Source: a virus. Taken from it: a stretch of 64,000 nucleotides of DNA. The notes beneath the pieces were generated by a model. It was not told the origin of the DNA. It did no database searches and was given only the letters and a program-made list of their open reading frames with translations. The position numbers and the translations under genes are program-made. The stretch is taken from positions 21,006-85,005 of the IMG/VR virus record IMGVR_UViG_3300031951_000087; one strand, written 5' to 3'. The stretch's first letter is position 1; each line of letters opens with the position of its first letter. Below, in pieces: positions 3,398 to 38,008 of this stretch.

Positions 3398-4996
3398 TTA
3401 TTTTTTACCAGGTGATGACGAGCCAACACTATATCCACTACTATCTGATGCGCTTACCTTGATTGATTTTGCAATCTCATTCGCAATATGTGTTTTAATA
3501 ACATCTGACAATCCAACATCAATACCCGTAACCTTAACATCAATTACCGGATTACCCTCAACTTTAATAAATTTATCTTTAGAAACCGCTTGTGTGTATT
3601 CATTTATTCTATCTAAAAAAGTATCCTTATCACCAGCAGAAAAAGATGTTTTTAAATCACCAAGTATTTTAGTACCTCCTTCAATTGATTTATCTAAAAT
3701 GTTTTTTACTTGTTCTTGAGCCTTAACAACCACACCTGTGTAACCTTCTAATGTAGTTGAAAAATTACCAGCCTTTAAAGTTGCCATTGAAAATGCGTTT
3801 GTTAACTGATTATTAGCTGAAATAACCGATTCTGTTGCGGATAAATTTCGTTGTATACTATCAATATTAGCTTCTGTATTATTTTTTAATTCACTACCTG
3901 AACCTTGTATATTTGATAAAATTTCTTTTACTTTATCAGGACTTAACCCACCAATATCTTGACCTTCAATTGTTACAACTCCACCTTTTTGTAGTTGAGC
4001 ATAACCTGCAAGTGTTTCTTGTTCTTCTTTAGATAATCCCTCAAACTGTGGTTTAAATTGGAATTGACTTATAATTTTTTCTTGTTTGGCTAATTTTAAA
4101 GCGGTCTCCTCAATTTCTTTAGATTCAATGCCTAAATTTTTTAATCCCCTTAATCTTAATCTTTCATTAGCACTTATTTCAAATTGACCAGTTTCTTCAT
4201 TAAATGTTGCAATACCTCTAGTTGCGTTAATTAATTGGTCATTTAATCCTTTTAAGTCGTTTTGTGCCATGTACAATAACTGAGCACCATCTCCAAGTTG
4301 TGAAAATGAACCACCCAGTGTTTGAAGTTGTGCGGCGTATTCGTAAGCTTTTTCCGGACTATCCATAATTTGGTCAGCAAAACCTTGAGCAACACTCAAT
4401 GTATCACCTAAAAGTTGTGATTTGGCGACCATTGACGCTAAATCTGAAACACCTTTTGGAAAACCATACTTGTTTACTATATCTAATTTTTCACCGACGG
4501 TACCAAGAAATTTACCGACATTTAATCCATACGCCTTTGCCGTGTTAACTAATTGAATTTGTTTTTCTGTGGCGGCATCCATACCACCACCAACTTTATC
4601 AAAGAACTTAACAAAAGAATTAATAGTCTCACCTTTAACACCGTATTTTTCAATTGCTTCAACATTTTCATAAAATTGTTGAGACAAATATGTTGTTCTA
4701 CCTATTTGTGAATTAATTTCGGTAAATGTTTTAATAACACCTTCCAAAGACCCACCCATTTTGATTACATTAACAGCGGCTCTTCCTAATTCGTTTTCAA
4801 CACTTTTTGCGTAAGCAGCACTTTGTCCTAAATTTCTGGCACCAGAAATTAACTTGGTATCAAAATTTGATACCGTGTTAAGAGTTTCTTTAAAATTACC
4901 TTTTAATCTTTCAGATATCTTACCAACCTTTTCAAGTTCGGCTGCAAGTCCTGTTACTTGTGTGGTTGTTTGGGTTACTTCGTTTTCTCCTGCCAT
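3398..4996 (-). CDS. Probable tail tape measure protein (gp29-like)
   Basis: 532 residues, largely helical, with Ala/Gln/Lys-rich segments and no catalytic motif. It starts MAGENEVTQTTTQ, and the middle carries AAQLQTLGGSFSQLGD, of the type seen in phage tail tape measure proteins. T4 gp29 is about 590 residues, so the length suits a T4-like tail. It lies directly downstream of a gp26-like gene with a start-less +1-frame extension, the classical position for a tape measure gene after its tail assembly chaperones. It is followed by a giant baseplate-type protein. The start ATG 4996 is preceded after 3 bases by the TATTTATT element. The assignment rests mostly on position and composition; another virion protein is possible. 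Confidence 0.6.
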   Translation of the reverse strand: MAGENEVTQTTTQVTGLAAELEKVGKISERLKGNFKETLNTVSNFDTKLISGARNLGQSAAYAKSVENELGRAAVNVIKMGGSLEGVIKTFTEINSQIGRTTYLSQQFYENVEAIEKYGVKGETINSFVKFFDKVGGGMDAATEKQIQLVNTAKAYGLNVGKFLGTVGEKLDIVNKYGFPKGVSDLASMVAKSQLLGDTLSVAQGFADQIMDSPEKAYEYAAQLQTLGGSFSQLGDGAQLLYMAQNDLKGLNDQLINATRGIATFNEETGQFEISANERLRLRGLKNLGIESKEIEETALKLAKQEKIISQFQFKPQFEGLSKEEQETLAGYAQLQKGGVVTIEGQDIGGLSPDKVKEILSNIQGSGSELKNNTEANIDSIQRNLSATESVISANNQLTNAFSMATLKAGNFSTTLEGYTGVVVKAQEQVKNILDKSIEGGTKILGDLKTSFSAGDKDTFLDRINEYTQAVSKDKFIKVEGNPVIDVKVTGIDVGLSDVIKTHIANEIAKSIKVSASDSSGYSVGSSSPGKK

Positions 4997-5007: not shown

Positions 5008-5190
5008 TTATTTATTGGATTTTTCACGAGCCTCCATAATCATATCGTGTTCTTGAAGAACCTTACCAATAAAATATTTTCTTTCATATGTTGGCATATT
5101 CATAATATCAACATATGAAAAGTTAGCGTTTTTAACTAAAAAAAATGTTTCGTCTAATAGTATTTTTTTATACTCCGAAGAAAGGGCGAA
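5008..5190 (-). CDS. Start-less +1-frame extension of gp26-like gene (frameshift product)
   Basis: This is a minus-strand reading frame of about 60 codons with no usable start. In-frame TAG at 5199-5197 blocks it upstream, and the first ATG would leave only 31 residues. The encoded sequence (ALSSEYKKILLDETFF, then MNMPTYERKYFIGKVL, then EAREKSNK) looks like a real protein tail. It sits in the +1 frame relative to the gp26-like gene, whose zero frame ends at TAA 5170-5168. Between those two stops the zero frame reads TTT TTT CGC. A P-site Phe-tRNA on TTT could slip forward to TTC, with CGC an uncommon codon in this AT-rich genome. Tail assembly chaperones upstream of tape measures often use programmed frameshifts, so I infer a fused product. 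A sequencing indel is the alternative. Confidence 0.6.
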   Translation of the reverse strand, partial: FALSSEYKKILLDETFFLVKNANFSYVDIMNMPTYERKYFIGKVLQEHDMIMEAREKSNK

Positions 5191-5920
5191 AAAAGTCTAC
5201 CCCAAAATTGACAGTGATGTCAATTATTTCTCCTGACGGGGTTCTGACTTGTTTGGTTAAATCCAATCTTGGCTCAACCTCTTTTAAAAATTTTCTAATA
5301 AATTTAGAATCGGCAATTGGCATTTGTTGAACATACTTTACAATAGATTCTCTATCCGAACTACCATTTATTGAAATAATCTGAGCTTCCAACTTTCTTG
5401 TAATAATTGGTGCTATCATACTTTTTGGGTAGATTTCCATTTCCTTGTCAATCATGTTCTCTTCACCATATGTTAAAAGTTTTAGTTTAACAATATCTTT
5501 TGAAGTGGGTAATGTTGTTTCAAACAGACCTTCTTGGTCAGGTGTTAGGTCAACTTTTTTTATATTTAATTCGCTCAAATCAACCTCAGCATCAAATCTT
5601 TGATTTGTTTTTGGGTCATATGATGACAATATATATTTTGTTCCAAATGCGGTATTTCTTAAAAAAAGTAAAATAGCTTCAATATCACCACCTAACATTT
5701 CATCAATCCTAAAATCAGGTTCGTAAATTTTTGATTTCAATAATTGATTAATCACATTATCACTATTTGAACTCATTAGCAGATTTTCATCTTGGGCCGT
5801 CAAATATCCAACCTTAACCGATTTCTTTTTATTTTTATAAAATAAACCTTGTGAAGGTAGTGGTACCACATCGTGTGGTAAGTTAAAATTCATTTGTCCG
5901 TATTGTATTTCGTTTTCCAT
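5168..5920 (-). CDS. gp26: gp26-like baseplate hub / tail assembly chaperone protein
   Basis: 250 residues from ATG 5920 (MENEIQYGQMNF). A TTG four codons upstream falls in a terminator stem and is not preferred. The pattern LPSQGLFYKNKKKSVKVGYLTAQDE, then LLKSKI, then LGGDIEAILLFLRNTAFG resembles the T4 gp26 baseplate family (Pfam T4_baseplate), in which LPS-G-FY and an ILI-LR segment are typical. In T4 gp26 is about 208 residues and acts in hub/tail assembly. Its place between tube gp19 and the tape measure is that of tail assembly chaperones. The C-terminus ends VDFFRPFFGV before TAA 5168; a +1-frame extension follows. Family assignment is moderate, positional role reasonable. Confidence 0.6.
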   Translation of the reverse strand: MENEIQYGQMNFNLPHDVVPLPSQGLFYKNKKKSVKVGYLTAQDENLLMSSNSDNVINQLLKSKIYEPDFRIDEMLGGDIEAILLFLRNTAFGTKYILSSYDPKTNQRFDAEVDLSELNIKKVDLTPDQEGLFETTLPTSKDIVKLKLLTYGEENMIDKEMEIYPKSMIAPIITRKLEAQIISINGSSDRESIVKYVQQMPIADSKFIRKFLKEVEPRLDLTKQVRTPSGEIIDITVNFGVDFFRPFFGV

Positions 5921-5985: not shown

Positions 5986-6474
5986 TTAATAAACTAAGAT
6001 ACATCTATCAGGACGAAGTGTTGCTGAGATGGTTTGTAAACCGTCATCAGTATAAGACACACCCTGAAAGTCCACGTCTGTTAGGAAACAACCTTGTAAA
6101 ATCCATTTTTCAACCGCAACACCTGTCGGGTCTAACATTTCCAAAGTAATATCCTTTTTATAACCAGCAGCATATCCCATACGACCTGTTACTGATTCAG
6201 CGTGTAAACGAACCCATTCCATAAGTGCTTGAGCAGCTGATGGTCCAATAGGGTCACGGAAAGTAACACCAATTGTTCCCCATTCAAACATACCAGCAAC
6301 ATAAGTTTTGGTATTTAAGAAAGGAATATCTTTTGATGCAATTGTTATTTTTGGTCTGGCAGCAGATTCTACATACCAAGAATTAATACCCAATGAAGTA
6401 GGAAACGTTAAAATAAATCGGTTTTTACGTTTTGGTTCATACGGGTCGGGCATTTTCATTAATAAGTCAGCCAT
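5986..6474 (-). CDS. gp19: Tail tube protein gp19
   Basis: 162 residues beginning MADLLMKMPDPYEPKRKNRF. The order PxxYEPKRxNRFxLxFP, then the aromatic-rich FEWGTIGVTFRDPIGPSAAQ, then the Asp/Gly C-terminal strands ending DRCILVY fits the T4 gp19 tube family (T4 gp19 is about 163 residues). Hexamers of this protein stack into the inner tube through which DNA passes, inside the gp18 sheath. The gene has its own upstream TATTTATA element 40 bases before the ATG and its own terminator immediately after. This monocistronic layout suits a highly expressed structural protein. Sheath gp18 lies upstream, separated by two small genes. Identification is confident. Confidence 0.92.
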   Translation of the reverse strand: MADLLMKMPDPYEPKRKNRFILTFPTSLGINSWYVESAARPKITIASKDIPFLNTKTYVAGMFEWGTIGVTFRDPIGPSAAQALMEWVRLHAESVTGRMGYAAGYKKDITLEMLDPTGVAVEKWILQGCFLTDVDFQGVSYTDDGLQTISATLRPDRCILVY

Positions 6475-6587: not shown

Positions 6588-7442
6588 TTAATATCTAGTT
6601 TTAGTTTGAGCTTTTGTTAAATATGTAGTTACTGGATGCTCTAGACCAAATTCTTTATTTAAGAATTCTTTAACTTTTTCCACATTTCTTTCATCGTCAT
6701 CTGAGAAACCTATTGAAGGTACCACGAAATTATTGGACACATCATTTTTGAACAATACTTTCCCCCCCACCTTGTTTGCAAGTTCCTTACAATAACTGAT
6801 AAACTCTCTTAATGCGTTTATTTTTCCTTCTTCAGGATTGGCTTCAGAACCAGTTCCGAAAGATACAGGGTGAAAACGACACATGTCCAAATATTCTTTA
6901 ATCATTGTATTGTCATCTTTAATATCCTCACCTGTAAAATCACGGTATTTCTTTAATGATTCCACCAATTTTTCTTGGTCCAAACCACTCACATTATTTT
7001 TGATGAGTTTGTAAACCGCTTGTTTTAAAATCATCGGATTGTGTCCACGAGCTGTGATGATGGAAAAAATTGACCCACCATTAATACACTCAACAAAATC
7101 ATCCCATGATGGTCCCAAACTCGCCGACATTACATCAACCAAAAATTGTCTTTCACCCTCACCTCTAAAATTTCTAAAAGGATTTGATGCAAAACCAACA
7201 ATAGTTTTTCCGTTGTACACAAATGGTTTTTTACCCAATTCGTTTCTATATTCAGCAAAATCATCAGTAGACATACCAATCTCATTATCTTTGTCATCTA
7301 ATACCATAATTTTTGTTGGCATATTCATTACATTGTCATCCCAATCAAAAGCGTAATATTTGTGGTCAGGTAATCCTGATGGGTCCATACCCTCAGTTAC
7401 CATTTCTAACAATTGTCTTCTAATTGATTTTTTTAAATTCAT
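6588..7442 (-). CDS. HAD-like phosphatase-family protein
   Basis: 284 residues. An N-terminal AFDWDDNVMN (Asp33, Asp35) matches HAD motif I (DxD). SIITARGH near residue 130 matches the Ser/Thr of motif II, and an acidic GFSDDDERN near residue 250 could be motif IV. HAD enzymes are phosphohydrolases or phosphotransferases acting through an Asp-phosphate; the substrate cannot be read from the sequence. It sits between tube and sheath genes, an odd place for an enzyme, and its ATG overlaps the stop of a 48-residue ORF (TAATG), implying translational coupling. The gene ends 113 bases before gp19. Two other HAD-type proteins occur in this window. Confidence 0.7.
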   Translation of the reverse strand: MNLKKSIRRQLLEMVTEGMDPSGLPDHKYYAFDWDDNVMNMPTKIMVLDDKDNEIGMSTDDFAEYRNELGKKPFVYNGKTIVGFASNPFRNFRGEGERQFLVDVMSASLGPSWDDFVECINGGSIFSIITARGHNPMILKQAVYKLIKNNVSGLDQEKLVESLKKYRDFTGEDIKDDNTMIKEYLDMCRFHPVSFGTGSEANPEEGKINALREFISYCKELANKVGGKVLFKNDVSNNFVVPSIGFSDDDERNVEKVKEFLNKEFGLEHPVTTYLTKAQTKTRY

Positions 7443-14546: not shown

Positions 14547-16109
14547 ATGAAATTTAAAAAATTAAAAGCCGAAATTGAAGAATTAGAAGACAAATTAACT
14601 ACCAACGAAGACCTACAAGAATCAATACAAAACGAACAAAAAGAGATTATTAATGAAATGAAAAAAATTGGGATTGAAAGATTACCATATTCATATTCAT
14701 CACTTGGTAGATTTATTGACCCAAAAACAATGAATGTTCATTACAACAAACATTATAAAGGGTATGTTGAAAAATTAAATGCGGCACTTGCAAATCTTAA
14801 AGGTGCCGATGCTGAACTTGAAGAAATTGTAAAAGGTATTTCAAGATATAACAAAACTGTTAAAAACAATGCGGGTGGTGCCTTTAACCACGCTTTGTTT
14901 TGGAAAATGTTATCGCCAAAGAAACAAACCATTAACGGTCCTGTAGAAGAAAAAATTAAAAAAGACTTTGGTTCTTACGAAGAATTCAAAAAACAATTCA
15001 CGGAAAAATCACAAAAGAATTTTGGTTCAGGATGGTGTTGGTTGGTAATTAATGGTCAAGGTAAATTAAAAATTGTTACGACATCAAACCAAGATAACCC
15101 ATTAATGAATACCGTCAAAGATGGTGGATATCCAATATTGGGTCTTGATTTGTGGGAACACGCATATTATTTAAGATACCAAAACAAAAAAGATGAATAT
15201 ATAGGAAAATTTTTCTCAGTTATTAATTGGGACTTTGTTAACACACTTCTTATATCTAAAAACGAAAAAAAACTTAACGAAGAAAAGTTAGCTGGTGAAT
15301 TACTTGTTGAAACAAGAGAAAGTATAGGTTGTTCAACAACAGAGGTTAAAGAAATAAACAAAATGTTTTCAATGAACACACAAGTAAAATATAAATTCAT
15401 GAATACAATCAACACAATCATGAAAGAAAAATTTTCAGAATATTGGTTTGAAAAAGACCAATATGAACCAGGTTCAATGTCAGGAATTTATAATTACGGA
15501 AAACCAGGTCGTTCAGTTATTAACAAATTAAATACAAATTACAGTTCGTTTTGTATTTTGATGAATGATTTAAATTTTTATTTAATTAAAAACAATATAA
15601 AACCTATATCATTTGGGGATAAAGATAAATTTGCACAAATTAAAGAAGTTGAAAGATTTACAAAATATCTTTATGATTTAAGAGACCGAATCTTTAACTT
15701 GTCAACATCTAAAACTTTTCAAAATATTGTACAGAAATTAGTACAAACCGATTCCAAAGGTGAGGAAAGAGAAGATATTACTGTTATAGCATTAAGAAAA
15801 ATATTTGGAACTGAAGACGTTCACAAAATTGGTGGATTGGGTTCTGAAGAAGATATGATTTCGGGTGTTGATGCGATTATTAATAAAGATGGTCAAAGAT
15901 TGACAGCACAAATTAAACCATTTAGTGGTGTAAAAGATTTTAATGATGATAGTGTTATGGTGTTCGGAGCGAGCGCACCAAAACAATATAAAACTGATTA
16001 TTTAGTTTTTAATAATAAAAACAAGACAGTCGTATTCAAAAATCAAAATACAAAAATTATTGATGGTAATTATGTATTTCCAAAATCAAACATATTTGGA
16101 GATATTTGA
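14547..16109 (+). CDS. Mn-type superoxide dismutase fused to nuclease-like domain
   Basis: 520 residues in three parts. Residues 1-45 form a charged coiled coil. Residues 46-235 are a complete Fe/Mn superoxide dismutase: LPYSYSSLGRFID, MNVHYNKHYKGYV (ligand His65; His69 and Tyr73 also conserved), NNAGGAFNHALFW (ligand His115), NFGSGWCWLV, and GLDLWEHAYY (ligands Asp201, His205). All four metal ligands are present. The Gly-rich NNAGG and the NQD at 181-183 are of the Mn type. Residues 240-520 are not dismutase; near the end, GVDAIINKDGQ plus AQIKPF (Asp442, Gln455, Lys457) suggests a PD-(D/E)XK nuclease core. The dismutase would detoxify superoxide; the role of the fusion is unknown. Neighbours are an SNF2 helicase and neck gp13. 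Confidence 0.82.
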   Translation: MKFKKLKAEIEELEDKLTTNEDLQESIQNEQKEIINEMKKIGIERLPYSYSSLGRFIDPKTMNVHYNKHYKGYVEKLNAALANLKGADAELEEIVKGISRYNKTVKNNAGGAFNHALFWKMLSPKKQTINGPVEEKIKKDFGSYEEFKKQFTEKSQKNFGSGWCWLVINGQGKLKIVTTSNQDNPLMNTVKDGGYPILGLDLWEHAYYLRYQNKKDEYIGKFFSVINWDFVNTLLISKNEKKLNEEKLAGELLVETRESIGCSTTEVKEINKMFSMNTQVKYKFMNTINTIMKEKFSEYWFEKDQYEPGSMSGIYNYGKPGRSVINKLNTNYSSFCILMNDLNFYLIKNNIKPISFGDKDKFAQIKEVERFTKYLYDLRDRIFNLSTSKTFQNIVQKLVQTDSKGEEREDITVIALRKIFGTEDVHKIGGLGSEEDMISGVDAIINKDGQRLTAQIKPFSGVKDFNDDSVMVFGASAPKQYKTDYLVFNNKNKTVVFKNQNTKIIDGNYVFPKSNIFGDI

Positions 16110-20780: not shown

Positions 20781-23681
20781 TTATAAACCGTATTTTGATT
20801 TATCGGCATTAAAGTTTTGTAATACTTGTGTTGATGTTAATGATGTGTCGTACATTCTTATGACACCAATAGTTCCTTTGAACTTGTTTAGGGCTGAACT
20901 TCCGTCTGCAGTAACTCTACCAGCTATACTTACAAAATTTGTGTTACTTACTTGATTAACACCAGCTAAACTTATACTTCCCGCGGAAACACCGTTTCTA
21001 TAAACCGTGAGAGTCTTGGCAACACCAAAATTAAAGACAGCAACCGCTTGTACCCAAGTATTCACCGTAAATCCCGTCATAATAATATTAGGGTTGTTAG
21101 CCCCGTCGTAAGCTGCCACGAACATATTACTTGCACCTTCATTAAATCTAATTGTGTAAGGGTATCTAAGAGGTGAGAAGCTGGTATCCCATTTTTCCAA
21201 TAGTTCCGCTTCACCTGAGTTTGGTTGACCATTTGAAGGATTAAACCATATTTCAACCGTGTATTGTTCAGTATTTGTAAAGTTTGTAACACCATTAACA
21301 CTTGGGATTCTACCATAAGAAGAACTTCCATTGAAAGTAAAACCACTTAATGCGTTGTAAGTTGGACTACCCGATAAAGTTGCATCCGTACTACCCACAG
21401 TTGTGTCCCAAACAGTTCCTGAACCAACATAACTACTTGGTAATAACTGTAGTTGTAAGTTTGATGTTACAATATTAGGTGTTACTGATGGTGTTGGTGT
21501 CTGAGTATTAGTTGGTGTTATTGTATTTGTTGGGGTAACCGTAGGTGTTGATGTTGATGTAGGGGTGGGTGTTGGTTCAACAAATCTTGGAGACAAGAAA
21601 TTATACTGTTGTTGTATTTCAGAAAGTGACAACTGTCTATTGTAGAAATACATGTTGGCAACATACCCCCAAGGCTGAGGAACGACATCATTATTACCCC
21701 AACCCCAGTGTGTAGTTCCACCAGCACCAAAAGCAATTTGACTTCCAACTTCAGAACCATTTATGTAGAATTTTTGAGATGAATTTGTTCCAACAACCGC
21801 ATATTGAACCCAAACACTTGTTTCACCTGACAAGTCATACCCTGAACTTCTAAACGCACTGTCCCAATAACCCAATATATCGGAGTTATTTGGGATGGTA
21901 ATTGGAGTGTATTTAGGTGAGTTTGTATAAAGTAATGTTCTAAATGATGCAATATTATTTAATTCTAATCTTGCCCAAGTAATATATGTGTATCCTGAAT
22001 TTGGTAATAAAGGTCCTGTTGCGTTGTAATTAACTCTATTAGTCCCTGTAGTACAATCAAAACATTTTATACCGTTAAGAACTGTGTAAGTTGCACCGAT
22101 TAATGTGTGATTATACCCCCCTGTTATATCATAAACTGTTGTACCTGTTCCGGGATAGCTTGAACTTGTATGTGCGTCAAGTTGGATTACCAAACCATTT
22201 GTTACAAGATTTGGCGTTGGCGTAATTGTTGGTGTAACCGTTGGTGTTGATGTATTAGTCGGCGTAATTGTTGGTGTAACCGTTGGTGTTGATGTATTAG
22301 TTGGTGTTGGTGTTGGACAAATATAATTTGAGGATGTGTTAATATAGTTTGAATACGTTTGTCCACTTGTTAAGGATGTTGTATAAATTTCTAAACTACC
22401 AAGTCTGTAATCACCAAATCCTCCGTCACCCATATTTGTACCATCCTGATGTGCAAGTAAATAAAATAGTCCTGACCCGGCATTATAAGGGGCCAATCTA
22501 TTTAAGGTTATATTACCAGCACTTACACCATCAACATATGCGGTTAAAGTTGACCCATCATATGTCATACCAACATAATACCAATTATTAAGTGGTGTTG
22601 ATATAGATGAGGTAAAATTAATATTTCCTGTAGTAGTCCATAAACCAAACTTAAGTGTTCCCGAAACCATTTCAATTATAGATGTGTGCCATCCCGATAA
22701 AGAATTTACAACCCCCACTTCAGAAAGTATAACCCCATCACCTTGAGGATAAATCCACATAAATATTGAAGTCACTTCAGACTTGTTTGGAGAAACACCA
22801 GAAAACAATGAACTTAAATTAGTGTTGGTATAGATATACTGTGAAGTACCATTGAAATCTACGAAAGTTCCACATCCTGTACTACCACTTGAAGGAGAAT
22901 TCACAATAGTACCATTACTATTATTTTCTAAATCAAATACGGTTGTAGTTCCTGAATATGAATTACTATCACTAAAATCGTAATATAGTATTCTACTACT
23001 CAACACATTTGTTGGTGTTACAGTGGAAGTTGGTGTTGGGGTTGGTGTGGAATTACTCGATGTCGGCGTAATGGTTGGTGTAATAGTTGGCGTAACTGTT
23101 GGAGTCTCCGTTGAAGTTGCTGTTGGTGTCTGAGTAGGAGTTTCGGTATTGGTAGGAGTTGGTGTTTGGGTAGGAGTTTCGGTATTGGTAGGAGTTGGCG
23201 TTTGGGTAGGAGTCTCGGTGTTAGTTGGTGTTGGTGTTTGGGTAGGAGTTTTGGTATTGGTAGGAGTTGGCGTTTGGGTAGGAGTCTCGGTGTTAGTTGG
23301 TGTTGGTGTCTGAGTTGGTGTTTCGGTATTGGTAGGAGTTGGCGTTTGGGTAGGAGTCTCGGTGTTAGTTGGTGTTGGTGTCTGAGTTGGTGTTTCGGTA
23401 TTGGTAGGTGTAACCGTATTTGTTGGTGTTGGCGTTACGGTGCTAGTTGGTGTTGGTGATGGATTTGGTGTTGTAATATCAATTACAAATGTTTGGTCGG
23501 TACCTGAAAAATATATAAACACTTTACCTTGTGGTGTACCATCGGCAGGAAAATAATCAAAAGGGATAGTTTCTACTCCCAACTCAAAAGTTTCATTTAA
23601 TGTTGTATCCAAAAAGGTAACCAAACATGTTTGACCACTATATTCAGTACTTTCAACTCTAAATCCGTAATTATTTGACAT
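20781..23681 (-). CDS. Adhesin-type tail fibre with Thr/Pro linkers and LamG-like domains
   Basis: 966 residues. Residues 1-70 form a small beta domain. Residues about 71-225 are almost pure Thr/Pro with a 12-residue unit [12 protein letters not shown]. Then come three lectin-like (LamG/concanavalin-type) modules at roughly 231-455, 490-700 and 745-966, each with a YDFSDSNS- or [10 protein letters not shown]-type opening strand and a VYxNGV or FYINGS motif, separated by shorter Thr/Pro linkers ([14 protein letters not shown]). The architecture suits an extended host-binding fibre carrying carbohydrate-binding tips on a mucin-like stalk. The Thr-rich stalk is a possible O-glycosylation substrate for the glycosyltransferases encoded nearby. 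The gene shares its first bases with the stop of the upstream fibre gene. Confidence 0.8.
23094..23411 (-). repeat. 36-bp coding minisatellite (about 9 units)
   Basis: Tandem units of 36 bases encode [12 protein letters not shown] in the fibre protein. There is a leading partial unit, seven near-identical units (one with Lys for Glu) and a degenerate last unit. Synonymous differences group the copies into two alternating types, suggesting expansion by pairs of units. Such arrays can change length by slippage or recombination. Confidence 0.85.
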
Positions 23682-28170: not shown

Positions 28171-29382
28171 ATGTCAAAGATTAAAATACTAGTTTTACCA
28201 TCAGACAGAACGGGAGTTGGTAAATTTCGTTCAATCGAACCTCACATTTTTTTACAGAATAAATACCCTGAAGATTTTCACGTAGATATTGATTTTGAAC
28301 CAAAAATGGATGATATATCCTATTGGACAAAATACGATATGGTTTGTTTTCACAGGAGTTTGAATCCTGATTATGATAAATCCAATACACTAATCCAAGT
28401 TTTAAATAGCTTAGGTATTATTACCGTGATGGATTTAGATGACTATTGGCTACCCACAAAAGAACATCCAGCATATCATTTAGTTGTACAACACAAAATT
28501 CATGAAAAAATTTTAGCGAACATCAAGGTCGCAAAATATGTGACGACAACTACATCTATTTTTGCAGATGAAATTAAAAAGTATAACAAAAATGTATTTG
28601 TTTTACCAAACGCTATTAATCCAAATGAACAACAATTTATGGAACCAACAAAACCATCAGAAAAATTACGATTTGGTTGGTTAGGTGGTTCTTCACACTT
28701 GCATGATTTGGGATTAATGAAAGGTTTTACAGATGCTATTGGTCAAGAATTTAGAGATAAGTCACAAATATTTCTTTGTGGTTTTGATACAAGAGGAACA
28801 ATGACTGAAATTAACGCACAAACTGGTGAACAAAAACAAAGAGCAATTCTACCACAAGAAACTGTGTGGGCGAGATATGAAGAAATTTTTACAAAAAATT
28901 ATGAATTCACAACACCTGAATACAAGGATTATTTGATGAAATTTAGACAAGACTCTTGGAATGGTAGTGAACAATTTTATAATCGTGTTTGGACTGAACC
29001 AGTGACATCTTACGCGAAAAACTACGCTAAATTTGATGTGTCTTTGGCACCAATTATGAATCACACATTTAATAGAGTTAAATCACAATTGAAGGTAATT
29101 GAAGCTGGTTTTTATAAAAAAGCAATTGTGGCATCAAATATTGGTCCTTACACAATTGATTTGAAACATTCATTGGAAAATGGTAACTTTGTTGATGGAA
29201 ATGCAATCTTAGTTGAGGAAAAAAGAAATCATTCAGATTGGGCTAAAGCAATGAAAAAACTAATTCAAAACCCAACATGGGCGGCAGATTTAGGTGAAAG
29301 ATTATACGAAACAGTAAAAGACAAATACGATTTAAATATTGTTACAGACCATAGAGCACAACTTTACAAATCATTAAAATAA
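28171..29382 (+). CDS. Glycosyltransferase, GT-B type
   Basis: 403 residues. N-terminal domain MSKIKILVLPSDRTGVGKFR with ITVMDLDDYWLP near residue 90, then the C-terminal domain LRFGWLGGSSHLHDL at about 165 and VIEAGFYKKAIVASN near 310, the GT4-like nucleotide-sugar binding half with its E-A-x-x-x-x-xP/V pattern. It would transfer a sugar from an activated donor to a glycan or protein. It is the first of a long cassette of glycan genes, transcribed with the exonuclease and dUTPase genes that follow with hardly any gap. Substrate unknown. Confidence 0.75.
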   Translation: MSKIKILVLPSDRTGVGKFRSIEPHIFLQNKYPEDFHVDIDFEPKMDDISYWTKYDMVCFHRSLNPDYDKSNTLIQVLNSLGIITVMDLDDYWLPTKEHPAYHLVVQHKIHEKILANIKVAKYVTTTTSIFADEIKKYNKNVFVLPNAINPNEQQFMEPTKPSEKLRFGWLGGSSHLHDLGLMKGFTDAIGQEFRDKSQIFLCGFDTRGTMTEINAQTGEQKQRAILPQETVWARYEEIFTKNYEFTTPEYKDYLMKFRQDSWNGSEQFYNRVWTEPVTSYAKNYAKFDVSLAPIMNHTFNRVKSQLKVIEAGFYKKAIVASNIGPYTIDLKHSLENGNFVDGNAILVEEKRNHSDWAKAMKKLIQNPTWAADLGERLYETVKDKYDLNIVTDHRAQLYKSLK

Positions 29383-29383
29383 A

Positions 29384-30091
29384 ATGTTACCATATCCAAA
29401 AACCAAATTATTATTCTTTGACTTGGAAACTGTTGGTGGTTATCCAACACTAAAAGAATTTGAAAAAAGTAATCCTGAACTTCATAAAGTTTTTATGAAA
29501 TATCAAGATTGGTTTATTAAAAAATTTCCTGAGGACAAAGACAAAACACCTGAGGAAATTTACGAAACAAGAGCCGCTCTTGTTCCTGAATTTGCCAAAA
29601 TTGTTGTGGCAAGTTTTGCTTTTATTTCACCTGATGGAAAAATGCAAATGCAAACATTCGCGTTGGACGATGAAAAACAACTACTTAAAAATACAATTCA
29701 ACTTTTAAATAAGGTTCACAAACTTAATTTTTTTATGTGTGGACATAACATTAAAGGGTTTGATATTCCAATGTTGGCAAAACGGATGATGATTAATGGT
29801 TTTGTACCACCGGCAATTATCCCAACCGCAGATACCAAGCCATGGGAAATTAAAGCCCTTGATACAAAAGAATTATGGAATGGTACAAACCCATTCACAA
29901 TCGCGTCGTTAGAATTGATTTCAGTATCAATGGGTTGTGAATCATCAAAAGGTGGACCTGTTACTGGTGGTGTTGTTCACCACTCTTATTGGGAAGCAGG
30001 AATTCTTGATAAAATTGCGGAATACTGTGAAGACGATGTAAAAGCGTTGGTAGACTTAATAGAAAAATTTGATAAATTACAATATGTTTAA
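29384..30091 (+). CDS. DEDD-type 3'-5' exonuclease
   Basis: 235 residues. FFDLETVGGYP (Asp14/Glu16 region) is Exo I, CGHNIKGFDIPML is Exo II, and YCEDDVKALVDL is Exo III with its Tyr, making a full DEDDy RNase H-fold exonuclease like the polymerase-associated exonucleases. It has no polymerase domain. It might degrade host or phage single-stranded DNA or RNA during infection. It starts one base after the glycosyltransferase stop and overlaps the dUTPase ATG by 8 bases. Confidence 0.82.
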   Translation: MLPYPKTKLLFFDLETVGGYPTLKEFEKSNPELHKVFMKYQDWFIKKFPEDKDKTPEEIYETRAALVPEFAKIVVASFAFISPDGKMQMQTFALDDEKQLLKNTIQLLNKVHKLNFFMCGHNIKGFDIPMLAKRMMINGFVPPAIIPTADTKPWEIKALDTKELWNGTNPFTIASLELISVSMGCESSKGGPVTGGVVHHSYWEAGILDKIAEYCEDDVKALVDLIEKFDKLQYV

Positions 30092-30680
30092 AAATCTAAA
30101 ACAAATGAATAGTTTAATTTCTGAAATGAAGAAATTAACAAATGACCCAAATGCTTTGAAAGACCCACAAGCAATGATGGAATCTATGGGTATTGACCAA
30201 GATGAAATTGAAAAACAATTATCGGGTTTATTAACCAAAAAAGCAACTTTAAAATTTACCAAAATTCATCCTGATTCGGTTGAACCAAAGTATAACTATG
30301 AAAGTGATTCAGGATTTGATTTACACTCAACCGAAGATTTGGAAGTTGGTCCATTTGGTAGAATTTTGGTACCAACAGGATTAAGATTTGATATTCCAAT
30401 GGGTCATGAAATACAAGTAAGACCAAAGAGCGGTTTAGCTCTTAAACAAGGTTTAACTGTATTAAACACACCGGGAACAGTAGATGCTGGATATGACGGT
30501 GAAGTAAAAGTTATTGTATATAATACAAATAATCACGTTGTAATAATACCAAAAGGTATGAAAATTGCACAAGCAGTTTTATGTCCAGTAATAAATGGTA
30601 AATTTGTAACACTACACGAAGTAATCGAATTAGATGAAAAAGAACGAGGCTCAAACGGATTTGGTTCAACAGGAATCTAA
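30084..30680 (+). CDS. dut: dUTPase with helical N-terminal extension
   Basis: 198 residues from ATG 30084, chosen over TTG 30069. The last 140 residues contain the trimeric dUTPase motifs: SDSGFDL (74-80, motif 1), RPKSGLA (113-119, motif 2), GTVDAGYDGE (131-140, motif 3), and RGSNGFGSTG (188-197, motif 5). It converts dUTP to dUMP and pyrophosphate, keeping uracil out of phage DNA and feeding thymidylate synthesis. The first 55 residues form an extra Met/Lys/Asp-rich helical region not usual in dUTPases. The end overlaps the next gene by 47 bases. Confidence 0.92.
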   Translation: MFKNLKQMNSLISEMKKLTNDPNALKDPQAMMESMGIDQDEIEKQLSGLLTKKATLKFTKIHPDSVEPKYNYESDSGFDLHSTEDLEVGPFGRILVPTGLRFDIPMGHEIQVRPKSGLALKQGLTVLNTPGTVDAGYDGEVKVIVYNTNNHVVIIPKGMKIAQAVLCPVINGKFVTLHEVIELDEKERGSNGFGSTGI

Positions 30681-31056
30681 TACTAGTCCTGTGTTGGCAA
30701 ATGGTGTTAAGAACTATCTAATTGACATTGATGGTACAGTAACTGAAGATGTGCCAAATGAAGAATCTGAACGTATGGCAACTTGTTTACCATATGAAGG
30801 TTCGGTAGATATGATTAACACTTGGTATGATGATGGACATATTATAACATTCTTCACATCGAGGACTGATGAACATGAAATAGTAACCAAACAATGGTTA
30901 GATAAACATGGTTTCAAATACCACAACTTGTTACTTAATAAACCAAGAGGTGGAAACTATCATTGGATTGATAATCACATTGTACGAGCGACTCGTTATG
31001 ATGGTAAATGGGGTGAATTAGTTAAAAAAGAACACACAATAGAAGTATTTGAATAA
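30634..31056 (+). CDS. HAD-like small phosphatase
   Basis: 140 residues. NYLIDIDGTVTED near residue 28 is a HAD motif I (DxDGT), and IITFFTSRTDEH near residue 72 provides the motif II Ser/Thr; HWIDNH near residue 109 may supply the acidic residues. It resembles short phage HAD proteins that remove phosphates from nucleotides or sugars. Its first 47 bases overlap the dUTPase 3' end and its stop overlaps the next ATG (TAATG), suggesting coupled translation. Substrate unknown. Confidence 0.65.
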   Translation: MKKNEAQTDLVQQESNTSPVLANGVKNYLIDIDGTVTEDVPNEESERMATCLPYEGSVDMINTWYDDGHIITFFTSRTDEHEIVTKQWLDKHGFKYHNLLLNKPRGGNYHWIDNHIVRATRYDGKWGELVKKEHTIEVFE

Positions 31057-32696
31057 TGATTACAATTGGATATAGTACCCGAAGTTCAAAACCTGAACTA
31101 CAAGAATATTTTAAAAAAACTTGTGGTGTAAAAAATATACAGGTTATTGAAAAAGTTAACCCAAATGGTCAGTCGTTGACTGACGTTTATAACGATATTT
31201 TAAATGAATCTGAAAATGACATTGTGGTACTTTGTCACGATGACATTTATTTTGATAACAAGAGTTGGGGATTTAAGATTTTGGAACACTTTAAAAAGAC
31301 CGATTATGGTATCTTAGGGGTTGCAGGTTCAACTAACTTACCTAAGTCAGGTATGTGGTGGGAAGACCGTCGCAAAATGGTTGGTATTGTAAATCACGAA
31401 CACGAGGGTAAAAAATGGGAATCAAAATATTCAAATGATTTAGGGAACAAAATTCATCAGACAGTTTTGATTGATGGATTGTTTATGGTTGTGAATAAAA
31501 GTAGAATCCAAGAAAATTTTGATACCAATGTTAAAGGTTTTCATTTGTATGATGTTGATTTTTGTTTTAGAAATTACATTAAAGATGTAAAAATTGGTGT
31601 AATGTTCAATATTAGAATAACCCATAAATCAATTGGAATGACAAATGAACAATGGGATTTAAACAGACAAGAATTTTCAAACAAATACCAAGACCAATTA
31701 CCTATTAAAATCAAAAAAACAAAAGAAGATAAATTAAAAATTCTTTTATCTTGTTTAAATTTTAAAACATTTACAGGTTCAGAAGTTTATGTTTATGAAT
31801 TAGCCAAAGGATTAGTTAAAATGGGTCACGATGTTACAGTTTTATCTGAAATTGGTGGTCCGTTAACTGATAAAGCAAAAAAGATTGGTATTAAAGTTAG
31901 ACCATTTAGTGAACCGCCAGGTTTTAAAATGGGTGATGGTAAATGGTCAGTGTCAACACCAAACGGTGTTGAGGTTTCTAAAGAAGGTATGCTGTACAAA
32001 ATACAAGATATTAACTACGATATTATTCACGTTCAACATGAACCAGTTACTAATATGGTACTACAATTATACCCAAATATTGAAAAAATTGCCACCATTC
32101 ATTCAGAAGTTATTGATTTAGAAAAACCTGTGAAACATGAATCAATTAAGAGATATATCGCAATTAGACCTGAAATTAAGGAACATATTGTTGAGCAAGA
32201 TGAAATTACTGAATCACTAGTTGATGTTATTTATAACCCAATTGATGATACAAGGTTTAATGAAAAAGAAACCACAGAAGAAAATGCCGTGTTGTTTGTT
32301 GGAACAATAGATTATCTAAGAGAACAAACAATTAAAGATTTGATTGAATATACTAATGAAAATCAAATGGAATTGTGGATTGTAGGTGAAAACAAATCAG
32401 ATTATTTAAATGATATTTTATTAAACAAACACGTCAAAAGATTTACACCAACTTGGAATACCGAAACATTTATTAGAAAGGCAAAAGAAACTGCTGGTAT
32501 TCTTTTAGGTAGAACAACAATTGAAAGTTGGATGTGTGGTAAAAAATCTTGGATATATAACGTAGACAAATCAGGTGGCATTTTATCAAAAGAATTGGTT
32601 TCTCCACCACAAGATATAAATAAATTTTATGGTTCAACAGTTTGTGAAAAATTGGTGGACTCTTACCTTAATATTATCAATGAAACTTTTAATTAA
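31056..32696 (+). CDS. Two-domain glycosyltransferase (GT-A plus GT-B)
   Basis: 546 residues. Residues 1-225 resemble a GT2/GT-A domain: MITIGYSTRSSKPELQEYFK, then VVLCHDDIYFDNK (DDxYF, sugar-nucleotide binding) and LYDVDFCFR. Residues about 228-546 form a GT-B glycosyltransferase: KILLSCLNFKTFTGSEVYVY, then LFVGTIDYLREQ and GILLGRTTIESWMCGKKSW. Two transferase active sites in one chain suggest building of a disaccharide or alternating polymer. It overlaps the next gene's start by 17 bases. Confidence 0.78.
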   Translation: MITIGYSTRSSKPELQEYFKKTCGVKNIQVIEKVNPNGQSLTDVYNDILNESENDIVVLCHDDIYFDNKSWGFKILEHFKKTDYGILGVAGSTNLPKSGMWWEDRRKMVGIVNHEHEGKKWESKYSNDLGNKIHQTVLIDGLFMVVNKSRIQENFDTNVKGFHLYDVDFCFRNYIKDVKIGVMFNIRITHKSIGMTNEQWDLNRQEFSNKYQDQLPIKIKKTKEDKLKILLSCLNFKTFTGSEVYVYELAKGLVKMGHDVTVLSEIGGPLTDKAKKIGIKVRPFSEPPGFKMGDGKWSVSTPNGVEVSKEGMLYKIQDINYDIIHVQHEPVTNMVLQLYPNIEKIATIHSEVIDLEKPVKHESIKRYIAIRPEIKEHIVEQDEITESLVDVIYNPIDDTRFNEKETTEENAVLFVGTIDYLREQTIKDLIEYTNENQMELWIVGENKSDYLNDILLNKHVKRFTPTWNTETFIRKAKETAGILLGRTTIESWMCGKKSWIYNVDKSGGILSKELVSPPQDINKFYGSTVCEKLVDSYLNIINETFN

Positions 32697-33342
32697 ATTT
32701 CCGACAAGGTCCCGTAGAAAACAATTCTTTGAAACCTTTAACAGGTATCAAGAATACATAAGTGAACCCACCACAAGGTTTTTAATTACCATAGATGAGG
32801 ATGACTCAGACATGAACAATGATGAGGTACTGGCAATACTTGAATCATACGATAATGTATCTTTTGTAATTGGTCAAAGTAATTCTAAAATTCACGCAAT
32901 TAACCGTGATATTGATACATCAGAAGATTGGGATATTATCTTATTGGCATCTGATGATATGATACCACAAGTTAAAGGGTTTGATAAAGTTATTAATACT
33001 TTGATGAACGCAAATTACCCTGACACAGATGGAATCCTTTTCTTTAATGATGGATTTAAAGGTCAAGAATTAAACACATTGTGTATTTTGGGTAAGAAAT
33101 ATTATGAAAGATTTAATTACATTTATTATCCTGAATATAAATCAGTTTGGTGTGATAATGAGTTTATGTTAGTCGGAAACTTACTAAGAAAACAAAAGTA
33201 TTTCCCAATGGTTATTATCAAACATGAACACCCTGATTGGGGATATGGTAAACATGACGTAATACACAATAAAAATCATTCAGACTTGTCTTTTGATATG
33301 AATTTATTTAAAGATAGACAATCCAAAAATTTCTACATATGA
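32680..33342 (+). CDS. GT-A-like glycosyltransferase
   Basis: 220 residues from ATG 32680 (MKLLIKFPTRSRRKQFFETF). The N-terminal half has TRFLITIDEDDSDMN and WDIILLASDDMIPQ, both acidic clusters of the kind that bind metal and nucleotide-sugar in GT-A enzymes, and the second half has FFNDGFKG. It resembles small phage glycosyltransferases that act in capsule or virion glycan pathways. It overlaps both neighbours by a few bases. Acceptor unknown. Confidence 0.62.
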   Translation: MKLLIKFPTRSRRKQFFETFNRYQEYISEPTTRFLITIDEDDSDMNNDEVLAILESYDNVSFVIGQSNSKIHAINRDIDTSEDWDIILLASDDMIPQVKGFDKVINTLMNANYPDTDGILFFNDGFKGQELNTLCILGKKYYERFNYIYYPEYKSVWCDNEFMLVGNLLRKQKYFPMVIIKHEHPDWGYGKHDVIHNKNHSDLSFDMNLFKDRQSKNFYI

Positions 33343-33998
33343 AAAAAATCATATCATTTTGTTTGTGGGGTGATAATCCAAAATACACAATCGGAGCGAT
33401 TGAAAACGCCAAATTAGCAAAAACAATATATCCTGATTGGACATGTAGATTTTATGTTGGTACTTCAACACCCGATGAAATTTGGGATGAATTATACGAC
33501 ATGGACAATACCGAAATGATTAATATGGAAATTGATGGTAATTGGTCAGGAATGTTTTGGAGATTTTATCCAGCGTCTGAAAATGACGTAGATGTTTTTA
33601 TTGTCAGAGACACTGATTCAAGATTAAGTCAAAGAGAAAAAGAAGCCGTTGATGAATGGTTATCATCAGATAAAGGATTACATATTATGAGGGACCATCC
33701 TTTTCATAATAGTTTAATTATGGGTGGTATGTGGGGAATGAAAAAAGACACGTTTCCTAAAATGAAGGAACTGATTGACATCTACAAGGGAGGTGATTTT
33801 TGGCAAGTTGACCAAAACTTTTTAAATGAAATGGTTTACCCTTTGTGTAAAAATAATACCATTATACATGACGAATTCATGAATTTTGAAAGTTGGAAAA
33901 AACCATTTCCAAGTGAAAGAAAAGACAAGGAATTTGTTGGTGATGTTTTTGATGAACATAATCAAAGACACCCAGAATATTATACATTTATACCATGA
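33339..33998 (+). CDS. Glycosyltransferase-like protein with DxD
   Basis: 219 residues overlapping its predecessor by 4 bases (ATGA). The N-terminus MKKIISFCLWGDNPKYTIGA and the core VDVFIVRDTDSRLSQRE (Asp91-Thr-Asp93) form a DxD nucleotide-sugar site of GT-A folds, and GMWGMKKDTF follows. Proteins of this pattern are usually annotated as glycosyltransferases in capsular and LPS clusters. It would act at the same step range as its neighbours; specificity cannot be read. Confidence 0.62.
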   Translation: MKKIISFCLWGDNPKYTIGAIENAKLAKTIYPDWTCRFYVGTSTPDEIWDELYDMDNTEMINMEIDGNWSGMFWRFYPASENDVDVFIVRDTDSRLSQREKEAVDEWLSSDKGLHIMRDHPFHNSLIMGGMWGMKKDTFPKMKELIDIYKGGDFWQVDQNFLNEMVYPLCKNNTIIHDEFMNFESWKKPFPSERKDKEFVGDVFDEHNQRHPEYYTFIP

Positions 33999-34855
33999 AA
34001 ATACTAATAATACAAGAAGCCGGAAGAAATGAACCAAACAAAGAATTTAGAGAGGCCAAAAATTTTCATAGGGGATTTCAAAAATTAGGGATTGATAGCG
34101 TCGTATGGGGGTTAAACCATGAAAATTTCAATATCCCTTACAATGAAATATCTAAAGATTGTGATGTTATTTTTTTATTAGAAAATTATGAAACAGGTGG
34201 ATGGGTACCCGATTTATCAAATGAAAAAAAATTAAAATTGTTTTGGTCTATTGATTCTCATTGTGTACCCACATCACATTTTAACACCGCAAAAAACCAT
34301 AATATTGATATTGTACTTTATGCGGTATATAATCACGGAAAATTATTTGGTAGTCGTAAAACAATTTATTTACCTAATGCATATCCAGATGATTTAATTT
34401 ACCCCATTAATGAAATTGAAAAAATTAATGATGTTGGGTTTTGTGGTTCTATTTTAAATCGACAATCACATTTAAATTTATTATCAAAAAATTTTAATTT
34501 TAAAAATGATACTTTTGTTTTGGGACAAAAAATGGTTGAGACTATTAACTCATATAAAATTCATTTTAATAGAAATTTATCTGATGATATTAATTTTAGA
34601 ACGTTTGAGACTTTAGGGTGTAAAACGTTTTTAATAACAAACCCAACACCAGGTATTAATGAATTATTTGAGATTGATAAACATTTAGTTGTTTATAAAA
34701 ATAACGATGAATTAATTGAAAAAATAAAATATTATTTAGATAATGAAAATGAAAGAAAATTGATTGAAAATCAAGGTTATGAATTTGTTAGAGAAAACCA
34801 CACTTATTTTCAAAGAGCTAAACAAATTGTAAAAATAATAGAAGAAAATGTTTGA
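33995..34855 (+). CDS. CgeB-like glycosyltransferase
   Basis: 286 residues. An N-terminal Rossmann-like domain (MKILIIQEAGRNEPNKEFRE, then DVIFLLENYE) is followed by a C-terminal domain VGFCGSILNRQSHLNLLS, HFNRNLSDDINFRTFETLGC and LDNENERKLIENQGYEFVR. This is the order seen in the CgeB/YkvP-type family, with the conserved Arg-Phe-Glu segment in the donor site. Its likely role is sugar transfer to a surface glycan or protein. It overlaps the previous and next genes by 4 and 8 bases. AT content is higher here than in the virion genes. Confidence 0.68.
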   Translation: MKILIIQEAGRNEPNKEFREAKNFHRGFQKLGIDSVVWGLNHENFNIPYNEISKDCDVIFLLENYETGGWVPDLSNEKKLKLFWSIDSHCVPTSHFNTAKNHNIDIVLYAVYNHGKLFGSRKTIYLPNAYPDDLIYPINEIEKINDVGFCGSILNRQSHLNLLSKNFNFKNDTFVLGQKMVETINSYKIHFNRNLSDDINFRTFETLGCKTFLITNPTPGINELFEIDKHLVVYKNNDELIEKIKYYLDNENERKLIENQGYEFVRENHTYFQRAKQIVKIIEENV

Positions 34856-35627
34856 TAGAATTGTCACAAGTACTAATGAAAATAGTACTTATTTAGGATT
34901 TTGGGAGCTTCAAATTTTATCCCATAAAAAGTTTTTCCCTGAAAAAAAAATAACAATAGCTTTTTTAACCGATAGAACATATGAAGATGAATTAGTTAAA
35001 GAAATGATTAGTTATGATATTGACGTACAGATATATAAACCAATTAATGGTATTCCCGAAGGAAACCATGCTAAAATATTAAGATACCTATGTGCATCAC
35101 AATATGATAATGAAATTTGTTGTATTACTGATATGGATACAATACCATTGCAAAAAGAATATTTAACCAATCAAACTAATCTTAGAGAACCAAATAAATT
35201 ATTATGTATTGGTGCCGAGGTTTATAAAAACACACCCCACTATGGTAAATTTCCCGCACACCACATGACAGCTGAAGGAAAAATATTTAAACAATTATTT
35301 AACCCTAATAATTTAAATTATGAAGACAGTGTTAAAGAAATTTCAAATTTTAAAGTTTTTGATTCAAAAGAAAGCCTTGTTAATTCAAGGGATGGTTTTT
35401 CGGATGAATCATTAATTAGAGTTTTAATAGAAAAAAATAGTGTCCCTGTTCAACATATAGTAAGAAATGTTGACATATATAATGATTGGATTGATAGAAG
35501 TTGGTGGAATATTGATATTGAAAAATTAAAAAATTTAAAATATATAGAGTCAAATTTATTAAGACCTTATGATGAAAATAAACAACAAATTGAACCAATT
35601 TTACAATTTTTAAAAGATGAATCATAA
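34848..35627 (+). CDS. GT-A type glycosyltransferase (DMD motif)
   Basis: 259 residues. IAFLTDRTYEDE near residue 40 and CCITDMDTIPL (Asp95-Met-Asp97) form the donor-binding core of a retaining GT8-like or capsular glycosyltransferase. HMTAEGKIFKQ and DGFSDESLI follow. It overlaps the CgeB-like gene at its start and the methyltransferase at its end. Probably part of the same glycan assembly pathway. Confidence 0.6.
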   Translation: MFDRIVTSTNENSTYLGFWELQILSHKKFFPEKKITIAFLTDRTYEDELVKEMISYDIDVQIYKPINGIPEGNHAKILRYLCASQYDNEICCITDMDTIPLQKEYLTNQTNLREPNKLLCIGAEVYKNTPHYGKFPAHHMTAEGKIFKQLFNPNNLNYEDSVKEISNFKVFDSKESLVNSRDGFSDESLIRVLIEKNSVPVQHIVRNVDIYNDWIDRSWWNIDIEKLKNLKYIESNLLRPYDENKQQIEPILQFLKDES

Positions 35628-36207
35628 AAAAGCGGTTTTAGAAGGATTGGAAACTGGTAAACAGTTACCACATAATGATAGATTAACACAAGTATTTAAT
35701 AACCTACTTAATATTGAAGATGGTTATTGCGTTGAAATAGGTGCGGGATACGGTGAAACTACTGTTAAATTATTAAACTCAGTTAAAAACTATAAAATAA
35801 TCGTTGTTGACCCATTTGAAGATGGTTGGGGTAGTATGCCTGAGTCCTACGGAAAACCATATCCATTTTTTCTTTTTCAAAATGCAATTAAACAATTTTC
35901 AGATAAAGTAATATTAATTAAAAAATCATCTGATGATTCATCGGTTATTGATGAATTATTAAAATACAAACCAATAATTTTTTCATTTGTTGACGGATTA
36001 CAATATACCGATAATGTATTGTACGATTTAAATATGATGGATAAATTAAATTGTAAAGTAATATGTGTTGACGATTATAATAGATTAACTAACATTAGTC
36101 AGGTCCCTTTAGCAATTGAGGAATTTATAAAAAATAATAAAAATTATGATGTTGTTTATCAAAACGACAATAAAGAAATTTATTTAGTTAGAAATGAAAA
36201 AAATTAA
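35617..36207 (+). CDS. Class I SAM-dependent methyltransferase
   Basis: 196 residues. CVEIGAGYGETTVKLL (motif I, residues 38-53) with Gly-x-Gly and IIVVDPFEDGW (motif II acidic residue) identify a Rossmann methyltransferase. KPIIFSFVDGLQY and VICVDDYNR resemble the FkbM/Methyltransf_24 type, which methylates sugars. In this position it would methylate a glycan made by the flanking transferases. Overlaps neighbours by 11 and 14 bases. Confidence 0.72.
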   Translation: MNHKKAVLEGLETGKQLPHNDRLTQVFNNLLNIEDGYCVEIGAGYGETTVKLLNSVKNYKIIVVDPFEDGWGSMPESYGKPYPFFLFQNAIKQFSDKVILIKKSSDDSSVIDELLKYKPIIFSFVDGLQYTDNVLYDLNMMDKLNCKVICVDDYNRLTNISQVPLAIEEFIKNNKNYDVVYQNDNKEIYLVRNEKN

Positions 36208-36760
36208 ATATTTTAGATTTGATGATGTTTGTATTAATGCTGATATAGATTTGATAAACAAAATGACAACATTTATGTTTGAAAAATTTCCAGACTGTGT
36301 TGTATTGTACGGAGTATCACCATTAGTTCACGACATGAGTTATGAAAAGAATGATGTTGAGAAACAAAGAATTTTTCCAAGAATATTAAACGCGTTATCG
36401 GATTATAAAAACTTCTATAAGGTTGACATGGCTGGATTGCCTGAGTTTCACCCAAAAGCAACATTAGCAGCACATGGATTAATACATGTTGACCATAGAT
36501 TATTACCAAAGTCAGTACAAGAAATTAGTATATTAATTAGTGCTAGTTTAGTTAAATCAAAAATATTTATTCCACCATTTAATAAATGGAATAAAGATAC
36601 TGAAGAAATATGTGATGAACATGGAATTGAATTAGTTAAATTTGAAGACGGTTGGTTGAGTATGGAACATAACAATTTTTCTGATATTCATAATAAATGG
36701 TATCTTCATGCTAGAGAATTTGAGTATGAAGATTTTGTTAAATGGTTTGGAAATGTATAA
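36194..36760 (+). CDS. Polysaccharide deacetylase-like protein
   Basis: 188 residues. KYFRFDDVCINAD (Asp10, Asp11) near the N-terminus, LAAHGLIHVDHR (His94, His98) in the middle and KIFIPPFNKWN (about 123-133) match motif 1 (Asp-Asp), motif 2 (His-x-x-x-His) and motif 3 (R/P-x-P-x) of carbohydrate esterase 4 or DUF2334-type deacetylases. It could remove acetyl groups from a sugar polymer. It is shorter than most CE4 domains. The end overlaps the next gene. Confidence 0.62.
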   Translation: MKKIKYFRFDDVCINADIDLINKMTTFMFEKFPDCVVLYGVSPLVHDMSYEKNDVEKQRIFPRILNALSDYKNFYKVDMAGLPEFHPKATLAAHGLIHVDHRLLPKSVQEISILISASLVKSKIFIPPFNKWNKDTEEICDEHGIELVKFEDGWLSMEHNNFSDIHNKWYLHAREFEYEDFVKWFGNV

Positions 36761-38007: not shown

Positions 38008-38008
38008 T

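Follow-up and report, generated by a model that had tools for sequence, protein, structure and literature searches.

A probable +1 ribosomal frameshift at a conserved UUU_CGN site in a phage tail assembly chaperone gene

The tail assembly chaperone locus

The window analysed here is a 64,000 nt stretch of DNA, positions 21006-85005 of the 85-kb virus record IMGVR_UViG_3300031951_000087. Its minus strand carries, in order, genes for a tail tube protein, a tail assembly chaperone, a C-terminal extension of the chaperone in the +1 frame, and a putative tape-measure protein. The tail tube protein (5986..6474) matches phrog_4542 (E 6e-25) and phrog_45 (E 4e-11). The 532 aa product of the downstream neighbour (3398..4996) is assigned as a putative tape-measure protein from its position and length, its match to phrog_4094 being weak (E 0.003). 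Between the tail sheath and tube genes there is also a 284 aa ORF (6588-7442, minus strand) containing an FDWDDN motif, which is possibly a HAD-type phosphatase.

The chaperone gene (5168..5920, minus strand) encodes a gp26-like protein of 250 aa in the zero frame, the short form or TAC-N, which is matched by PF12322 (32.3 bits, cut-off 24.5) and by phrog_150 (E 4e-13). It ends at a TAA (5168..5170), 21 nt past the start of the candidate slip codon. The junction sequence is GGG GTA GAC TTT TTT CGC CCT TTC TTC GGA GTA TAA, within which the TTT TTT CGC tract spans 5194-5186, the candidate slip codon UUU (5189..5191) would occupy the P site with a C next to it, and the A-site codon is CGC (5186..5188). 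Upstream, the glycine codon GGG (5203-5201) and the G of the next codon make up a Shine-Dalgarno-like GGGG (5200..5203, minus strand), at a distance of 8 nt from the slip codon. A TAG at 5197..5199, just 5' of the slip site, closes the +1 frame, which is then open down to a TAA at 5010-5008, 11 nt short of the putative tape-measure gene, whose ATG is at 4996. No ATG, GTG, or TTG is present between this TAG and the conserved part of the +1 frame. The extension, or TAC-C (5008..5187, minus strand), consists of 59 aa and the stop codon, begins ALSSEYKK and ends SNK; joined to the zero frame it would give a fused product of 303 aa.

A first-pass annotation, made by reading the window alone, had drawn the same outline, with the zero frame stopping at 5168, the +1 frame blocked at 5199-5197 and lacking a usable start, TTT TTT CGC between the two, and a +1 tail stopping just before the tape measure. 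All of these features are borne out. The annotation also described a sensible coding tail of 60 residues, of which the coding character holds and the length does not, the extension after the shift being 59 residues.

The extension adds to the family assignment. For the fused product the phrog_150 match improves to E 1.9e-15, with 58 bits versus 50.3 without the extension, and residues 12-284 align to positions 10-273 of the 282 in the profile, nearly end to end. PF12322 and phrog_150 include T4 gp26 as well as T4 gp51; along the phrog_150 profile gp51 reaches the C-terminus, while gp26 stops short. Comparison of profiles built from the fused +1 products and from the fused -1 products gave a probability of 98.6% (E 7.6e-16), and the +1 and -1 tails alone gave 95.2% (E 2.6e-8). 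Judged by these profiles, both parts of the protein have homologues in the family of T4 gp26/gp51 and in the products that -1 frameshifting is predicted to give in other T4-type phages. Profiles were needed for this, comparisons with a lone gp51 being too weak; single-sequence alignment of the extension against gp51 found nothing. The predicted structure of the zero-frame protein has a pLDDT of 82.9. A Foldseek search of the PDB with this predicted short form returned no match (best E 0.9), as did a comparison of the chaperone sequence profile with the PDB, so that neither fold nor sequence in the PDB backs the chaperone assignment.

Conservation of the slip site and the +1 frame

Two scans of viral contigs were made for relatives. 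The first used the zero-frame protein and identified 50 loci, 47 of which are readable to the zero-frame stop, and all 47 have the +1-frame tail. The second, an alignment search, identified at least 569 relatives, and the tail is in the +1 frame in 80 of the 80 that were kept for analysis. The arrangement is therefore found in 127 of 127 readable loci, a few contigs being common to both scans. A set of 78 loci was left once redundancy was removed at 95%, judged on the 300 nt upstream. At the junction of the zero and +1 frames of all 78, a P-site UUU is followed by CGN, with the TTT, the next C, and the next G invariant; the pattern behind the 78-locus alignment demanded TTTCG, and the two scans, which made no such demand, agree with it.

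The A-site codon is unusual for these genes. Arginine is encoded by CGN at this position in 78 of 78 loci versus 83 of 723 arginine codons elsewhere in the same genes, where AGA is usual, and all four CGN codons are in use. CGC is at the A site in 29 of the 78 loci versus 1 of the 723 other arginine codons, and it is rare in the phage of the window as a whole (in 25 genes of the window, 4 codons out of about 12,700). TTT CGN is found in frame twice in the 18,005 codons of the window ORFs of at least 150 aa, one of the two being the slip site. Three lineages (L157, L168, and L174) have TTC as the first phenylalanine codon and thus read UUC UUU CGN, breaking the homopolymer, which narrows the core of the site to UUU_CGN. 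In-frame TTT-C seems to be avoided in the rest of the gene, but GAT-C is just as rare, and the effect was set aside as not specific.

A second biased codon lies upstream. Four codons ahead of the slip codon, 76 of 78 loci use GGG for glycine, a choice made at 108 of 1058 (~10%) other glycine positions. Fisher tests of the codon biases give p values of 5e-31 to 3e-64, that for GGG being about 3e-64, all of them overstated because the lineages are related. The GGGG can pair with the anti-Shine-Dalgarno sequence of 16S rRNA (CACCUCCUUU); such pairing is strongest just upstream of the tract, with a mean of about -7 kcal/mol and a background of -0.07. Starts of window genes reach a Shine-Dalgarno energy of -4.4 or lower in 2 of 41 cases and are otherwise without such sequences. 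Bacteroidota ribosomes rarely use Shine-Dalgarno sequences (PMC8710568). The start sites in the window resemble those of Bacteroidota, which, on start-site composition alone, may be the host. A host search in bacterial genome contigs gave four weak matches, none from this clade, and a nucleotide search against cultured phages gave no match. An RNA structure that might act as a stimulator was sought as well; mean z values lay between -0.3 and -0.9, and no structure common to the loci emerged.

The zero-frame stop is 15-24 nt past the start of the slip codon in 78 of 78 loci, and in 76 of them the tail is followed by a long ORF with an ATG start. In 7 of the 78 the +1 frame opens just 5 nt before the slip codon. 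Past the zero-frame stop, the +1 frame has a pN/pS of about 0.26 and the other two frames 0.84-2.0; the value for the zero-frame gene upstream is about 0.36. The tail is under purifying selection as coding sequence, and in the +1 frame only. The suggestion in the first-pass annotation that a programmed +1 frameshift joins the gp26-like protein to a start-less frame is strongly supported by a conserved site, a conserved frame, and a conserved tail.

Proposed mechanism and competing explanations

It is probable, at roughly 0.9, that a programmed +1 ribosomal frameshift yields two forms of one tail assembly chaperone from this gene. Predicted from the sequences are the shift itself and its efficiency, the slip in the P site, the action of the protein as a chaperone, and whatever part the GGGG may play. 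Most ribosomes would read ...GAC UUU UUU CGC CCU UUC UUC GGA GUA UAA and produce the 250-residue short form. In a minority, the P-site tRNA-Phe (anticodon GAA) would move from UUU to the better-matched UUC during the delay at the A site, where a rare CGN codon is decoded slowly; re-pairing in the +1 direction on UUU_C is favourable because this tRNA pairs better with UUC than with UUU. Shifted ribosomes would continue with GCC CUU UCU UCG to the 303-residue long form, which would carry a second small domain. The slip may also take place one codon earlier, with the same product, where the preceding codon is UUU as well, as it nearly always is. If the two forms divide the work as gpG and gpGT do in lambda, the tape-measure protein would be coated by the part common to both, and the long form, the rarer one, would recruit tail tube subunits.

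A mixed mRNA could have the same outcome, if the polymerase slipped on the run of six U (losing one U or gaining two) and the ribosome remained in frame. TTTTTTC is present in most loci, and TTTTTTT in most of a related group typified by phage Mel-JY01, and the loss of one U would give the same +1 product. However, the tail is kept in the +1 frame where there is no long homopolymer: in L157, L168, and L174, which have TTCTTTC, in most loci of a third group typified by LR756508, which have TTCTTTTGG, and in LR756508 itself, which has AACTTTCTATT. Nor does transcriptional slippage explain the conserved rare CGN codon, and it is considered improbable.

Marginally less probable again is separate initiation of the tail, from a non-canonical start or by re-initiation coupled to the stop codon, with no fusion being made. 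The long form is a separate paralog in T4 and in Campylobacter phage CP220, the tail ORF has its own ATG in two loci of the third group (L270 and L275), and many of the clade's loci carry an upstream +1-frame TTG, a triplet that can stem from the conserved Phe-Gly codons TTT GGG. Set against this are the 8 of 78 lineages, that of the window included, whose conserved tail is not preceded by an ATG, GTG, or TTG anywhere after the last +1 stop, and the conserved rare CGN and GGG codons, which would have no role in downstream re-initiation. The first-pass annotation had considered that relatives might have an ATG-started separate tail gene. None was found within the clade, but L270 and L275 of the distant third group (2 of 19 loci) do have one, and T4 and CP220 also do in a sense, through their separate paralogs.

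A shift of -2 reaches the same downstream frame as +1, with one extra phenylalanine in the product, and -2 shifts do occur in some phages, such as Mu. The tRNA-Phe would, however, re-pair poorly two bases back on TTC TTT CGN and on the AAC TTT CTA of LR756508, whereas its +1 re-pairing to UUC is perfect, and the rare A-site codon suits +1; a -2 shift is very improbable. That a single indel, through sequencing error or gene decay, has split one chaperone gene is hardly credible: a one-base difference would indeed join the frames, but the same offset is present in 127 loci from many metagenomes and in 78 non-redundant lineages, with purifying selection on both sides, and this conservation, which also answers the indel check named in the first-pass annotation, refutes it.

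The GGGG is harder to account for, as it lies 8 nt from the slip codon where prfB has a spacing of 3 nt, and as the ribosomes of the host, if this is one of the Bacteroidota, would largely ignore Shine-Dalgarno sequences.

Frame direction and known systems

Searches with phrog_150 and inspection place the tail in the -1 frame in P-SSM2, S-PM2, HTVC008M, Cr30, phiM12, phiW-14, and Vi01, the offset being taken from coordinates for HTVC008M and from reading frames for phiW-14 and Vi01. The -1 offset is also found in 82 of 82 loci in a set of Kyanoviridae-type contigs. The -1 tail is at a U-rich site in the Kyanoviridae, Cr30, phiM12, phiW-14, and Vi01. T4 and CP220 have separate paralogs. Outside the clade of the window, two sister groups have the +1 offset. 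A scan gave at least 600 relatives of the Mel-JY01 group, of which 80 were analysed, and all 80 loci are at +1, with the sequence UUU UGG CCU; CGN is therefore not the sole A-site codon of the family, since this group uses UUU_UGG. In the LR756508 group 17 of 19 loci are at +1. In the other two, L270 and L275, the ATG-started tail ORF lies just after the zero-frame stop, which would be a further way to express the C-terminal part besides +1 and -1 shifting.

In a tree of zero-frame proteins the +1 and -1 sequences are split across a branch (support 95/90), with T4 gp26 and gp51 on the -1 side; the tree is unrooted and its long branches limit this split. It is conceivable, if somewhat doubtful, that the direction of frameshifting has reversed during evolution within one chaperone family, from or to -1 in the Kyanoviridae (U-rich tract, GGAGGG about 10 nt upstream) and +1 in the clade (UUU_CGN, GGGG 8 nt upstream), where UUU_CGN, a +1 signal familiar from viruses of eukaryotes, would be paired with a Shine-Dalgarno-like stimulator in a host whose ribosomes ignore Shine-Dalgarno sequences at initiation. 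The family can be seen as a natural experiment on what determines frameshift direction, with one branch linking the two domains by -1 and the other linking the same pair by +1.

Vladimirov and colleagues (2022) reportedly found frameshifting to be kept in several T4-like groups, with T4 using separate genes. In the arrangement of a short form and a C-terminal extension from the same family, the chaperones of the clade resemble those of T4-like phages, and they differ from T4 itself, which has two paralogous genes, gp26 and gp51, where the clade has one gene and a +1 shift. T4-like tail assembly chaperones were identified by Vladimirov, Gautam and Davidson 2022 (Virology 566:9-15), as cited in PMC10885494 and PMC12846349, and the latter paper describes the poly-T sites of that study as -1 signals. 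Frameshifting in tail assembly chaperones is a classic case, and a 2016 review describes the G-T shift as widely conserved 'except T4' and that of HSTV-2 as 'very likely +1' (Atkins, PMC5009743). The first-pass annotation knew of no such arrangement among T4-type gp26 proteins, but T4-like phages had been described before as having frameshifted chaperones of the gp26/gp51 type; its view that +1 would be unusual is upheld by the seven phages and 82 Kyanoviridae-type loci at -1. As far as could be found in the literature, the +1 direction with UUU_CGN is new for this known system.

The likeness to lambda gpG/gpGT is one of gene position and arrangement: short and long forms come from one gene in lambda and are predicted to here, and the chaperone lies between the tube and tape-measure genes, the tape measure here being putative, from position and length. 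Lambda differs in shifting -1.

The site itself resembles one known from elsewhere. A +1 shift at UCC_UUU_CGU was shown for influenza A PA-X and was lost on mutation to UUC_AGA; the same study predicted that UUU_C sites form a class of +1 signals (Firth et al. 2012, PMC3498833). UUU_CGN has been proposed for plant amalgaviruses (Nibert et al. 2016, PMC5052127), and in HF1-like haloviruses the junction of the chaperone gene has a TTT-CGC motif, a proposed +1 site (PMC7230728). The clade shares with this class the P-site UUU, the C that follows, and the CGN in the A site. It differs in the E-site codon, which is UCC in PA-X and UUU or UUC here, in being of bacteriophages, with another gene and another ribosome, and in the conserved GGGG added upstream. 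Halovirus HF2 was rejected as a homologous comparator; it has no phrog_150 match and its TTCTTTCGC is not a chaperone junction. With prfB (RF2) the site would share a +1 P-site slip on a pyrimidine-rich codon, a slow A site, and an upstream Shine-Dalgarno-like sequence. In prfB the A-site codon is UGA and the spacing is 3 nt, whereas the clade has a sense codon and 8 nt, and no autoregulation is implied.

A large and mostly uncultured set of phage contigs thus apparently makes a pair of the T4 gp26/gp51 type from one gene by a +1 shift. This supports the idea that the two genes of T4 are one solution among several for producing short and long chaperones, and it places the UUU_CGN motif of influenza PA-X and the amalgaviruses in phages, with deep conservation. 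Annotation tends to split such genes, as in the Mel-JY01 record, where they are two hypothetical proteins.

A different junction was seen in the record of Pseudomonas phage QdP_Psa3, in which phrog_150 did not detect the chaperone family. At about 4660-4840, the ORF that precedes a long one placed like a tape measure closes with GAC TTC TTT CCC TAA C, and its +1 frame stays open past this stop. CCC_UAA is similar to the +1 site in SPP1 gp17.1.

Some other genes of the window are also worth recording. A 520 aa ORF (14547-16109, plus strand) contains by eye a stretch like iron/manganese superoxide dismutase within a larger protein, which is unusual in a phage. The 966 aa protein at 20781-23681 (minus strand) has long repeats between LamG-type-looking domains and is probably a fibre or adhesin. 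A run of genes at 28171-38575 (plus strand) resembles glycosyltransferases, a methyltransferase, and nucleotide-sugar enzymes, suggesting glycosylation of the surface or of DNA. The sole other in-frame TTT CGN of the large window ORFs, a TTT CGT at 28225 (plus strand), is near the start of a glycosyltransferase-like gene.
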